Shown: one piece after another, positions 28,004-31,612 of the stretch | Layout of the letters: every line of letters starts with the position of its first letter | Position numbering within the stretch: the stretch's first letter is position 1 | Assembly: GCA_016795365.1 (NCBI GenBank) | Contig: JAEUHN010000026.1 | Location: 1-64,000, forward strand | DNA length: 64,000 nucleotides | Reading direction: 5' to 3' | Source of the DNA: Verrucomicrobiaceae bacterium | Lineage (GTDB): Bacteria; Verrucomicrobiota; Verrucomicrobiia; Verrucomicrobiales; Verrucomicrobiaceae | The notes under the pieces: model-generated | What the model was told of the DNA's origin: nothing | Database searches by the model: none | What the model saw: only the letters and a program-made list of their open reading frames with translations | Program-made: the position numbers and the translations under genes

Positions 28004-29479
28004 TCAGTCAGCGCGGAACTTCGGCTCGCGGAAGGCAGGCATCACCTGCTCAAAGCCGTAGCCCAGCGCCAGCATTGACGCATCGCTCCCAGCTGCACCG
28101 AAAAACGACAAGCCAACCGGCAGATCATCGACGAAGCCCATCGGCACGGTGAGGTGCGGGTAGCCTGCGATGGCGGCGGGTGAACTGCTCACACGCACGC
28201 GAGCATCACCATTCGCGAAGTCCGTCTTGTGAATCGGATCGTTCGTGGGGCAGATCAGCGCATCGAGCTGATTCTCGCGAAGCGCTGCATCAATGCCCTC
28301 GGGTCCGGCAAGCCGACGTGCCTCAGTTCGCGCTTCCTTGGCCATTGCGATGGCTTCGTCGGTGCCGAGTTTCTCGGCCAGCTCGAAGAAGTCCTGACCA
28401 AAGTGCGGCAGCTCTTGCTCGCGATGCGCTTCATTGAAGGCGATCACCTCAGCCAACGACTTCACCTTTGCACCGCGTTGCTCAAGGTAGGCATTCAAGT
28501 CGGCGCGAAACTCCGTGAGCATCGCGAGGAAAGCCGGACGATTGATCTCCTCGCGATGCGGCAGTTCCACCGGATCAACGATGATCGCACCCGCATCGAG
28601 CATCGCTTTCAACGCCTGCTCAAACATCGCGAGCACCTGCGCGTTCTCGCCGCTCATTGCTCGCACAACGCCGAGGCGCTTGCCCTTCAAGGCATCTGCA
28701 CGCAGCCCGGCGGTGAAGTCCGTCACCCGCGCGTCTTTCGTCATCGCATCGCGTTCATCGCGACCAGCGATCACATTCAAAAGCATCGCTGCCTCGCGCA
28801 CCGTGCGTGCCATCGGTCCCGCTGTGTCCTGCCAGTGCGTGATCGGGATGATGCCGCTACGGCTGAGCATGCCCACGGTCGGCTTGAAGCCCACGATGCC
28901 GCACGCGCTCGCGGGACTCACGATGGAGCCATTCGTCTCCGTGCCAATCGCCAGCGGCACCAGTCCTGCAGCAACAGCTGCCGCCGATCCAGAACTCGAT
29001 CCGCTCGTGTTGTAGGTCAGCCGATGAGGGTTGCGCGTGAGCCCACCCCGCGCACTCCAACCGCTCGTCGATTTGGACGAGCGAATGTTCGCCCACTCGC
29101 TAAGGTTGGTCTTGCCCAGCAGCACCAGACCCGAGGCTCGCAGCCGCTCCACGATGAAGGCATCGCGCTTCGGCTTTGATCCCACCAGCGCCAGCGAGCC
29201 TGCCGTCGTCTCCATCGCATCCGCGGTCTCAATGTTGTCCTTGATCAGAATCGGCACGCCATGCAAATCGCTCAATGGCGGCTTGTCTTCGAGCGCTTCA
29301 GCGATGCGTCGCGCGTCAGGATTGATCTCGATCACCGAGTTGATAGCCGGCCCATGCTTGTCAATCTCGTCGATGAGCTGAAGGCAACGCTCAGTCGCTC
29401 CGACGATCAGCCGATGACGAGCGCAGCCAGATAAAACCAGCGCAGCGCTGGTGCTCCCGATGAACTGACGACGATTCAT
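28004..29479 (-). CDS. Exported amidase-signature hydrolase, probable lipoprotein
   Basis: The product has 491 residues. The N-terminus combines a twin-arginine motif (MNRRQFIGS) with a lipobox (LVLSGC), so it is probably a Tat-exported lipoprotein. The amidase-signature triad is visible: Lys in ILIKDNIET, Ser in SGSSSGSAAAVAAG, and the nucleophile Ser in TETNGSIVSPAS. The family hydrolyses amides, including peptide amides and some acyl amides. It is not a GatA, because gatB/gatC are absent and it is exported. Downstream, across a 123-bp gap holding a palindromic element, lies the phospholipase-like gene on the same strand, read before this one. Confidence 0.85.
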   Translation of the reverse strand: MNRRQFIGSTSAALVLSGCARHRLIVGATERCLQLIDEIDKHGPAINSVIEINPDARRIAEALEDKPPLSDLHGVPILIKDNIETADAMETTAGSLALVGSKPKRDAFIVERLRASGLVLLGKTNLSEWANIRSSKSTSGWSARGGLTRNPHRLTYNTSGSSSGSAAAVAAGLVPLAIGTETNGSIVSPASACGIVGFKPTVGMLSRSGIIPITHWQDTAGPMARTVREAAMLLNVIAGRDERDAMTKDARVTDFTAGLRADALKGKRLGVVRAMSGENAQVLAMFEQALKAMLDAGAIIVDPVELPHREEINRPAFLAMLTEFRADLNAYLEQRGAKVKSLAEVIAFNEAHREQELPHFGQDFFELAEKLGTDEAIAMAKEARTEARRLAGPEGIDAALRENQLDALICPTNDPIHKTDFANGDARVRVSSSPAAIAGYPHLTVPMGFVDDLPVGLSFFGAAGSDASMLALGYGFEQVMPAFREPKFRAD

Positions 29480-29502
29480 TCGCCCATCGTGAAGCTGTGG
29501 TT

Positions 29503-29591
29503 CTGGAGTTCAAGGTTTACCTTGCGGCACATCGCTCGGAGTTCAGGGTCGAGGCGACGTCCAGCACCCCAGGCTGAAGCCTGAACTCCAG
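29503..29591. repeat. REP/BIME-like palindromic element
   Basis: The outer arms CTGGAGTT (29503-29510) and AACTCCAG (29584-29591) are perfect inverted repeats. Each abuts a small perfect hairpin: CAAGGT-TT-ACCTTG on the left (29511-29524) and CAGGCT-GA-AGCCTG on the right (29570-29583). A further GGAGTTCAGGG lies inside. The nested symmetry occupies nearly the whole gap between two minus-strand genes. Confidence 0.65.
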
Positions 29592-29602
29592 CACTGATGC
29601 GA

Positions 29603-30637
29603 CTACTTCCTCCACCGCTTGGTGAGTGCATCCCAGCCGGGTCCATTGTCTTTTGGCAGGGCCGCGAGCACCTTCGAGCGATGCGTCACGGCTTCGAACA
29701 TCACGGCGACTTCCTCGCCGATGCGCCAGAGCGTCTGCGTGAAGTTCGCCTTGGCGGCGGCTTCGATCATCTCGGGATAGGTGAAGCCAGTGAGTTCACG
29801 GATCGTTGCTTTGCACTCGCCGTTCGTCAGTTGCATGTCGTCGAGCACGTCGTTCGCATGGTGCTTCACCCAGCGACGATTCTCGGCCATCACCGCACGC
29901 AGCGTTGGCTCGGCTTCGGGTAACCAATGATCCGCGAACACCTCGCCCAGGCGGCCACGCTTGGGCGCGCAGCGCATGTAGTGAAGCTGCAAAGGCTCCA
30001 CCGGCGTCGCGGCCATGTCGGCAAACATCGCGGGCCAGTCGAGATGAAACTCCTTCACGCCGATCTCGTAATACGTGACGAGGTCCTGCACGGGCCGATT
30101 GCGCGCCGTGTAGCGACCATCGAGAAGATTGAGATCAATGCCCGGCTGCATTCCTTTGATGAGACTGTCGCCCACCACATGCACGATCCAGCCGAGCGCA
30201 TACGCGAGCTGCCGTTCGCCCGGCCCGATGAGCGCCGCGTCATCGAACATCGCAGCGAAGTAGTCCGGCAAATGATCCCAAGGCACATGCATCGCTGCGT
30301 CCTTCTTCGTGAAGCCAAACACTAGGTGAGCGCGGCCATAGAAGCGTTCATGCACGTCACGCGGCGTCAGCGCACCCTCCGGCGTAGCGAGCCGGAACTG
30401 CCGCACCGCACCGCCCGTGATCGGGCTCTTCTCCAGCGGCACCGTGCCGAAGCCCACCTCGCGCCCCGTGTCCACGCAGATCGCTTCGGGCATCACCTGG
30501 ATGTCGCTGCCGATGTAAGCTCCCGCGAGGAAGCTCGCGAAGTGTCGCTGCGCGATCGCGACGAGCGGGAGCTGGCGTTGCATCGCGGCCTTCAATCCGA
30601 GCACCGCATACATGCTGTGGCCGACGATGCCGCTCAT
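29603..30637 (-). CDS. Hypothetical protein, zinc-dependent phospholipase-C-like
   Basis: ATG 30637 overlaps the upstream stop (ATGA), giving 344 residues. Helical segments carry several His/Asp residues (LAIAQRHFASFLAGAYIGSD, HVPWDHLPDYFAAM, LGWIVHVVGDSLIKG, KHHANDVLDDM), spaced like the ligands of the all-helical zinc phospholipase C / S1-P1 fold. There is no signal peptide at the chosen start, which is odd for that family, so it may act in the cytoplasm or depend on an earlier start. The tight overlap with an exported MBL-fold hydrolase implies a joint function. The assignment is tentative. Confidence 0.4.
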   Translation of the reverse strand: MSGIVGHSMYAVLGLKAAMQRQLPLVAIAQRHFASFLAGAYIGSDIQVMPEAICVDTGREVGFGTVPLEKSPITGGAVRQFRLATPEGALTPRDVHERFYGRAHLVFGFTKKDAAMHVPWDHLPDYFAAMFDDAALIGPGERQLAYALGWIVHVVGDSLIKGMQPGIDLNLLDGRYTARNRPVQDLVTYYEIGVKEFHLDWPAMFADMAATPVEPLQLHYMRCAPKRGRLGEVFADHWLPEAEPTLRAVMAENRRWVKHHANDVLDDMQLTNGECKATIRELTGFTYPEMIEAAAKANFTQTLWRIGEEVAVMFEAVTHRSKVLAALPKDNGPGWDALTKRWRK

Positions 30638-31563
30638 GGTGCCGGAGCGCGCTCGTGTTGCTTTGACATGATCACCTTCTCGCCATCGCTCACCGCCGTG
30701 ATGTTGCCGTGGAAAGCGGTGACAAACACTTCCGCACCGATCGCACCATAGACTTTGATCGCGTTGTCGCCCGGCGAGCACGGATACGGCGTGTTCGCAT
30801 TGCCCGGATAGTCCGCCACGCAGGACGCCACCACATACTGCGGCATCACCATCTTCGGGAAGTCGAAGCCGGGATTGAAGCCGTGATGATTCGCCGTCAA
30901 CACGTTCGCCTTCAGCTTCTCGGGCGGAACGTTCGTCTTGATGTGCTTCTCGAAGGTGCCGCCATACGAGTCGCCAGGGAAGATGAAGACGTTCTTTCCA
31001 TGCTGCACGCGCAGCGCTACGGAGTTCGAGTTGAGCAAGCCGTGATCACTCACCTTGGCAGGGTCGCTGTTGGGATCGAGAAACTCCTTCGGCGGCGACA
31101 GCACCTCCACCTTCAGCGCCGGGTCCCAATCGAGCACATCACCAAAATGCACCGGCTGATGCACGCCGCCTCGCGACACCGCCAAGCCACGCAAGCGTGT
31201 GTAGCTCAGCGTCTGACCGCGTCCCTCGTAGTTGTGGTCGATGAAGGCGTTGACCTTCCAGTTATTGATCAGCCACTCCGCACCGCCGTAGTGATCGCCG
31301 TGCGGATGACTGATGACGATGCCCGCGATCTCAGTCACGCCCTGCGCCTTGAGGAACGGCGAGACCGCATCGCGTCCGGCATTGTAGTCCGGCTGGCTGC
31401 GCACACCGCCCGTGTCGATGAGATACACCTTGCCCGCAGGCGTCTTCAGCACCGCCGCGAGCCCATGCACAGGCGTATCCAGCCACGTGACTGTCATGGA
31501 ACCCTGAGCCCGCGCCAGCAACGGCAGCAGCAGAAGTGAAAGAAAAATCCGAAGAGAAGCCAT
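30634..31563 (-). CDS. Secreted MBL-fold (ComEC/Rec2-type) metallo-hydrolase
   Basis: ATG 31563 begins a signal peptide (MASLRIFLSLLLLPLLARA), giving 309 residues. The metallo-beta-lactamase motif SHPHGDHYGG (His-X-His-X-Asp-His) is near residue 84. Later ligands lie in FIFPGDSYGG and TANHHGF. It resembles the hydrolase domain of ComEC-like proteins, which cleave phosphodiesters, but as a free-standing exported enzyme. Only 49 bp separate its start from the divergent bioA start. Its stop overlaps the next gene. Confidence 0.82.
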   Translation of the reverse strand: MASLRIFLSLLLLPLLARAQGSMTVTWLDTPVHGLAAVLKTPAGKVYLIDTGGVRSQPDYNAGRDAVSPFLKAQGVTEIAGIVISHPHGDHYGGAEWLINNWKVNAFIDHNYEGRGQTLSYTRLRGLAVSRGGVHQPVHFGDVLDWDPALKVEVLSPPKEFLDPNSDPAKVSDHGLLNSNSVALRVQHGKNVFIFPGDSYGGTFEKHIKTNVPPEKLKANVLTANHHGFNPGFDFPKMVMPQYVVASCVADYPGNANTPYPCSPGDNAIKVYGAIGAEVFVTAFHGNITAVSDGEKVIMSKQHERAPAP

Positions 31564-31612
31564 GCGCCCACAACGCCATTGGACGCACGCATCCTGCGCG
31601 CTATCAGCAATC

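Follow-up and report, generated by a model that had tools for sequence, protein, structure and literature searches.

The window (the whole stretch of DNA analysed, 64 kb) contains an intergenic gap of 123 bp (29480-29602), which by direct reading of the sequence and its open reading frames (ORFs) is bounded by two minus-strand ORFs. In this gap lies an element (29503-29591) composed of two tagged hairpins in inverted orientation, with an outer arm that extends to 29601. The features of the locus are as follows.

28004-29479, minus strand: amidase gene (PF01425), the downstream neighbour (ORF list and Pfam)
29503-29510, plus strand: tag (head) of the left unit, CTGGAGTT, GGAG plus 2 nt (sequence; tag-blind partner hairpins, below)
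29511-29524, plus strand: left hairpin CAAGGTTTACCTTG, CAAGGT-TT-ACCTTG (sequence; identical at the same place in the sister species G001)
29538-29549, plus strand: possible third tag remnant GGAGTTCAGGGT, weak (direct repeat D1; not conserved in G001)
29570-29583, minus strand: right hairpin CAGGCTGAAGCCTG, CAGGCT-TC-AGCCTG, with the family consensus stem (sequence and genome pattern search)
29584-29591, minus strand: tag of the right unit, AACTCCAG as read on the plus strand and CTGGAGTT on the minus strand (sequence and genome pattern search)
29592-29601, minus strand: outer arm CGCATCAGTG (CACTGATGCG as read), similar in the copies on contigs C25, C26, C41, and C13
29603-30781, minus strand: upstream ORF with no Pfam family at E 0.001, missing from the locus in G001 (ORF list, Pfam, and comparison)

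Both units share one architecture, GGAG followed by 2 nt and a 6-bp stem with a 2-nt loop. The right unit reads CTGGAGTT-CAGGCTTCAGCCTG on the minus strand and the left unit reads CTGGAGTT-CAAGGTTTACCTTG, the tagged hairpins facing each other. Compared with the family consensus CAGGCT/AGCCTG, the left stem has two altered pairs (G-C to A-T and C-G to G-C), and because both sides are changed in each of them, pairing is kept. A repeat search found inverted-repeat arms of 28 nt with 75% complementarity (29500-29527 and 29567-29594). When the element was folded as DNA, one of 200 shuffles was at least as good (z -2.68), and as RNA, two of 200 (z -3.14); the fold is better than that of nearly all shuffles, with modest z-scores. 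The first-pass annotation had described a hairpin pair of nested symmetry in this gap, and sequence, repeat search, and folding agree that it is real. On the right, the symmetry reaches past the end annotated then and includes 29592-29601, where the outer arm ends beside the neighbouring ORF's stop codon (29603-29605); the left side has no matching outer arm.

The only terminator-like site found, a hairpin with a T-rich tail (29436-29452, minus strand), is inside the start of the amidase gene. None exists at the element, which also has no Rfam match up to an E value of 1.

Copies in the host genome

At up to three mismatches, nothing in the window besides the right unit itself matches the unit (0.04 matches expected in shuffles). 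In the whole genome, a 23-letter unit pattern matches 16 sites at the same threshold, as opposed to none for the reversed pattern. One of the 16 sites (C1:63238, three mismatches) is located inside a 1007-codon open frame and is probably a chance match. Nine of 12 sites in the host genome have no covering open frame of at least 150 codons, whereas this holds for 2 of 60 places picked at random in the window; those under an open frame are the sites on C25 and C11 and the doubtful one on C1. Paired copies exist on C41, C25, C3, C11, and C7 in addition to the window element, while C26 and C34 carry single copies. Within the pairs, the stems of the two partners differ.

The element is thus a multicopy, mostly extragenic palindrome, as a canonical REP is, and its two units are inverted around a short spacer, as in a BIME or REPIN. 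The earlier description as BIME-like paired hairpins was therefore right in kind. The tag, in turn, is not the standard one: a canonical REP has GTAG or GTGG directly at the hairpin foot or no more than 2 nt from it, and here the foot is GGAG. Because of this tag, we regard the element as a variant and not as a canonical REP.

The outer arms beyond the tag are genome specific (CGCATCGGTG in the host genome and GCCGTTATTT in the OFTM167 loci). In four OFTM167 loci (L061, L127, L063, and L159), the pair is nested in longer inverted ends (matching GCCGTTATTTTGGAGTTCA exactly or nearly) and looks more MITE-like than elsewhere.

Comparison with the sister species

G001 is the sole genome of the same genus among the relatives searched. 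A search with one mismatch allowed was positive for 2 of 38 genomes, namely, G001 and the host genome; by the degenerate pattern, another family member (G002) has 30 units, and three further members have one each. At the window locus, the left hairpin is preserved letter for letter in G001, in surroundings that are about 86% identical. There, G001 does not have about 2 kb (approximately 29563-31568) that holds the upstream ORF and the right unit together with the larger part of a gene for a metallo-beta-lactamase-fold protein. One edge of this segment falls inside the hairpin element.

In the orthology comparison (the copies on C11, C1, C3, and C7 lie outside it), five copies, the left unit of the window (C51) and those on C34, C25, C26, and C13, are found at matching places in G001. 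Because of this, the family looks fixed and decaying in the host genome and its sister. Decay is seen in both directions: all that is left of the C41 pair in G001 is the end of its right tag, and the host genome has a decayed counterpart of the G001 unit C171. No clean empty site was found among the loci compared, the C41 counterpart retaining a remnant, and no insertion was observed. The loci compared show inheritance and decay and not new insertion.

A different kind of change was observed in an IS200-like Y1 cassette (L212:2544-3205 and L211:1943-2605; 663 bp, 96% identical), which has opposite orientations in the two species with respect to its flanks. The DNA around it is rich in other palindromes and tandem repeats.

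Distribution in other genomes

Other genomes contain a 21-letter core with 20 fixed letters in at least 117 stretches. Judging by contig titles, the matches listed, which are mostly from metagenomic bins, include Planctomycetota, Acidobacteria, Verrucomicrobia, Chloroflexales, Falkowbacteria, and others. Within the same phylum, a degenerate pattern matched 34 of 387 genomes (268 hits summed, versus 7 for the reversed pattern); this pattern leaves pairing unforced, its maximum is 42 hits per genome, and several of the single hits may be due to chance. A Chloroflexales genome (G044) has 198 units.

Stems vary among genomes (CGCC/GGCG, AGCC/GGCT, AGGC/GCCT, and CGGC/GCCG) and are nearly always paired among the hits listed. 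In the 117 listed stretches, 85 of 110 neighbouring unit pairs at most 160 bp apart have the order tag-hairpin and then hairpin-tag, and 57 of 141 clusters consist of a single unit. Tag and stem were also scored independently. With partners chosen by tag only (140 seed units, 89 with a downstream partner tag and 51 without), 77 of the 89 partners have at least five of six stem pairs, compared with 0.8% of shuffles, and stem position 4 is C-G in 34 and G-C in 34. With partners chosen by stem only (137 seeds, 76 with a downstream 6-bp hairpin), GGAGT[TCA] is located at the foot of 64 of the 76 hairpins.

In six Planctomycetia loci (JACQFH L071, L087, L094, L101, L135, and L137), the units pair around a conserved spacer of about 90 nt. 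The internal complementarity of this spacer suggests that the units may there be part of a larger structured element.

Y1 transposases in the host genome and its phylum

The first-pass annotation had likened the element to BIMEs moved by a REP-associated tyrosine transposase (RAYT). The host genome has 10 Y1_Tnp matches. For the nine proteins scanned (all but L020), the best match is the IS200 model in six cases, with one score narrowly below its cutoff, and the RAYT model in three, all three below its cutoff. The case that would have refuted a mobile element according to the first-pass annotation, a single copy and no RAYT gene, is not what the genome shows. No tagged hairpin was found within 1.5 kb of these three RAYT-like genes, where the only similarity consists of weak 14-base matches near L025. 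Thus, the arrangement of a REPtron, in which the cognate RAYT is flanked by the repeat, was not found in the host genome. Units lie within 1.5 kb of 1 of the 10 Y1 genes, an IS200-like gene on C13, which has two decayed units in duplicated, repeat-rich DNA; its counterpart in G001 has one unit nearby. A link of the element to the Y1 genes of the host genome was rejected except on C13, where the units are decayed and other palindromes lie closer to the gene. Movement by a RAYT of the host itself is not supported, with a single decayed association among 10 Y1 genes and five copies orthologous in the sister species.

Enrichment at Y1 genes was likewise absent from 15 genomes of the same phylum: at 90 Y1 loci, drawn from 305 matches (summed), one strict unit was found versus 0.76 expected from the pooled density. 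One of the 15, a 5.3-Mb genome of the same class (G212), has the most Y1_Tnp matches (134). HMMs built from the host Y1 proteins found no Y1 gene in the 117 listed unit-bearing stretches, and tblastn with seven Y1 proteins, run without a positive control, found none in 69 unit-bearing stretches of viral contigs. A plasmid-borne RAYT relative (L453) has no unit.

RAYT-like genes with units in Falkowbacteria

A Falkowbacteria genome of 0.9 Mb (G057) has two Y1 matches, both RAYT-like and both with units. Four of its 11 strict units are located within 500 bp of the two genes (binomial P 2.6e-8). This link emerged after inspection of 22 motif-bearing genomes, mostly metagenomic bins, and the P value is still small after correction for 22 genomes. 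RAYT1 scores 100.6 bits against the NCBIfam RAYT model and passes its cutoff of 80; it goes with GGAGTCC units, one of which lies inside its reading frame. RAYT2 (L270:1690-2229, minus strand), whose sole PDB match is the Escherichia coli TnpA-REP structure 4er8, is flanked on both sides by inverted units (beginning with GGAGTTCACCC and GGAGTTCAGGC), with GGAGTTCACCCTTTAGGGTG on one side and, on the other, GGAGTTCAGGCTTTAGCCTG, which is one loop base from the right unit of the window. Elsewhere in the same genome, the two units of RAYT2 form two dimers (L274 and L275). In another genome, then, a RAYT gene does have repeats of this kind on its flanks, as in a REPtron.

Across the 22 motif-bearing genomes, strict units were found at 2 of 70 Y1 loci (L201 and L207), the 70 loci being drawn from 178 matches (summed) and the second Falkowbacteria RAYT locus being taken separately. 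At the loci examined in the other 21 genomes, no RAYT flanked by units was found, apart from a Y1 gene of G047 with a pair of units at a distance of about 600 bp (L207). The G047 pair is weaker evidence, as is a Y1 gene of G038 that has a decayed unit at about 1.3 kb (L231). The Chloroflexales genome with 198 units, which has one Y1 match, and G041, which has two, have no strict unit at their loci (L186, L198, and L225).

Origin of the element

We conclude that the element is probably a BIME/REPIN-like doublet of old REPs, from a family in which the tag is GGAG. A REP-type origin is likely, and present mobility in the genus is not supported. The origin is supported by the Falkowbacteria RAYT-like genes, which carry units and one of which is flanked by a core nearly that of the window. 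As to the RAYT postulated at the outset, the idea that units were moved by such an enzyme is strengthened by these two genes, and the host genome as the source of the enzyme is not supported. The units may have been spread by a RAYT (TnpA-REP) that recognised them as hairpins in single-stranded form and for which GGAG presumably served as the guide in place of GTAG. In the genus of the host, the family would then have stopped moving, its copies being inherited and subsequently decaying. The left unit of the window is common to both compared species, and the right unit was either gained here together with the 2-kb segment or lost with it in the sister species, the edge of the segment lying inside the element.

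A different origin could be envisaged if the long outer inverted repeats (beginning with CGCATCGGTGCTGGAGTTCAGGCT) were the ends of a nonautonomous transposon, an orphan MITE mobilized by a non-Y1 transposase. The outer arms do reach past the tag and are genome specific, and the 15 genomes of the phylum show no enrichment of units at Y1 genes. A MITE has terminal inverted repeats and a target-site duplication where it inserted; the outer arms here are inverted, and the sole orthologous site of different size (C41) gave a remnant and no duplication. Against a MITE, single units exist both here (C26 and C34) and elsewhere, the two ends each form a hairpin whose stem changes compensate one another, and the Falkowbacteria RAYT-like genes carry units. 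We therefore consider a MITE unlikely.

Whatever their origin, the hairpins between the upstream ORF and the amidase gene could also be kept by selection as regulatory structures that stabilise mRNA, attenuate transcription, or terminate it. If the element has an effect today, it may be, for example, as a hairpin in a transcript that continues from the upstream ORF into the amidase gene. The unchanged left hairpin in diverged surroundings and the RNA fold would agree with such a role, but G001 keeps the amidase gene without the right hairpin and the upstream ORF, the element resembles neither a terminator nor an Rfam family, and related units are found at other loci of the genome. A regulatory role thus appears improbable. 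The hairpins could finally have arisen by chance in the GC-rich gap, as short perfect stems are common and the z-scores of the folds are modest. Chance is nevertheless refuted by the copy number, to which the absence of reversed-pattern matches and the recurrence of the 21-letter core in other genomes can be added, and we give it practically no weight. The old REP doublet remains the preferred explanation.

Comparison with known systems

REP biology rests mainly on the GTAG repeats of Proteobacteria. The window copy itself is ordinary. A family that has a tag differing by one base, nearly identical cores in distant phyla, and, in one small genome, two RAYT-repeat sets that apparently match would offer a test of the tetranucleotide as the RAYT cleavage guide and of how repeats outlive their transposase. 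Tentatively, and with more doubt than confidence, we propose that GGAG REPs form a tag class of their own, the third after GTAG and CGTC, present in at least five phyla (by contig titles, Planctomycetota, Acidobacteria, Verrucomicrobia, Chloroflexi, and Falkowbacteria), with a GGAG-guided RAYT lineage of their own that may have been lost from most carrier genomes.

The strings GGAG and AGGCTT are absent from the main texts, figures and supplements apart, of PMC3733652, PMC6006769, and PMC8266576, and GGAGT and AGGCTT are absent from that of PMC2817692, again apart from figures and supplements. The GGAG tag class is thus absent from the main texts searched, and its novelty in print is not proven. 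A table in PMC2817692 contains REPs of Haemophilus influenzae and Thioalkalivibrio that share the CTTCAG centre with the element. In our literature search, one paper came up for REP-associated tyrosine transposases and Verrucomicrobia and none for these enzymes and the Candidate Phyla Radiation, and among the papers listed for the unit motif none was relevant.

Both the GTAG and CGTC superfamilies and the TIRYTs/TIRtrons are described in the text consulted of PMC3733652. TIRYTs and the class 3 TnpA-Y1 transposases resemble the present case in having non-GTAG repeats and, for TIRYTs, long outer inverted repeats (PMC3733652 and PMC6006769, main texts). According to the latter text, class 3 occurs mainly in Planctomycetes, Acidobacteria, and Proteobacteria and goes with CnGA-foot structures. 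The unit of the element, however, has GGAG and neither GGGGWSAS (PMC3733652) nor CnGA (PMC6006769). By eye, the TIR motif GGGGWSAS, which stands beside the Y1 gene in TIRYTs, was absent, and enrichment at Y1 genes was not found; also by eye, the corresponding motifs of the Falkowbacteria RAYTs are YIHQNP and YIHHQP and not the YV..EQ-type motif given for class 3 in the main text of PMC6006769. The same text reports that each TnpA-REP has its own REP family and that one subclass has in-frame REP insertions.

The CGTC-tagged REPs, as presented in the main text of Di Nocera 2013 (PMC3733652), are alike in forming dimers with different stems and in having, in most genomes examined, no dedicated transposase beside the repeats. 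They differ in the tag, and the GGAG family has one genome with RAYT-like genes at units. The GTAG REPs, BIMEs, and REPINs with their RAYTs are similar in their inverted pairs and, in one other genome, in a RAYT with units; they differ from the element in that its tag is GGAG, its own genome has no linked RAYT-like gene, and the copies compared are shared with the sister species and are not new. The Marinomonas REPtron Mb, for which the main text of PMC8266576 gives GTAG, a 2-base gap, a 5-bp stem (a 10-nt palindrome interrupted by 4 nt), and the loop TTTA, is like the element in having a tetranucleotide, a 2-nt gap, a short perfect stem, and a small loop.
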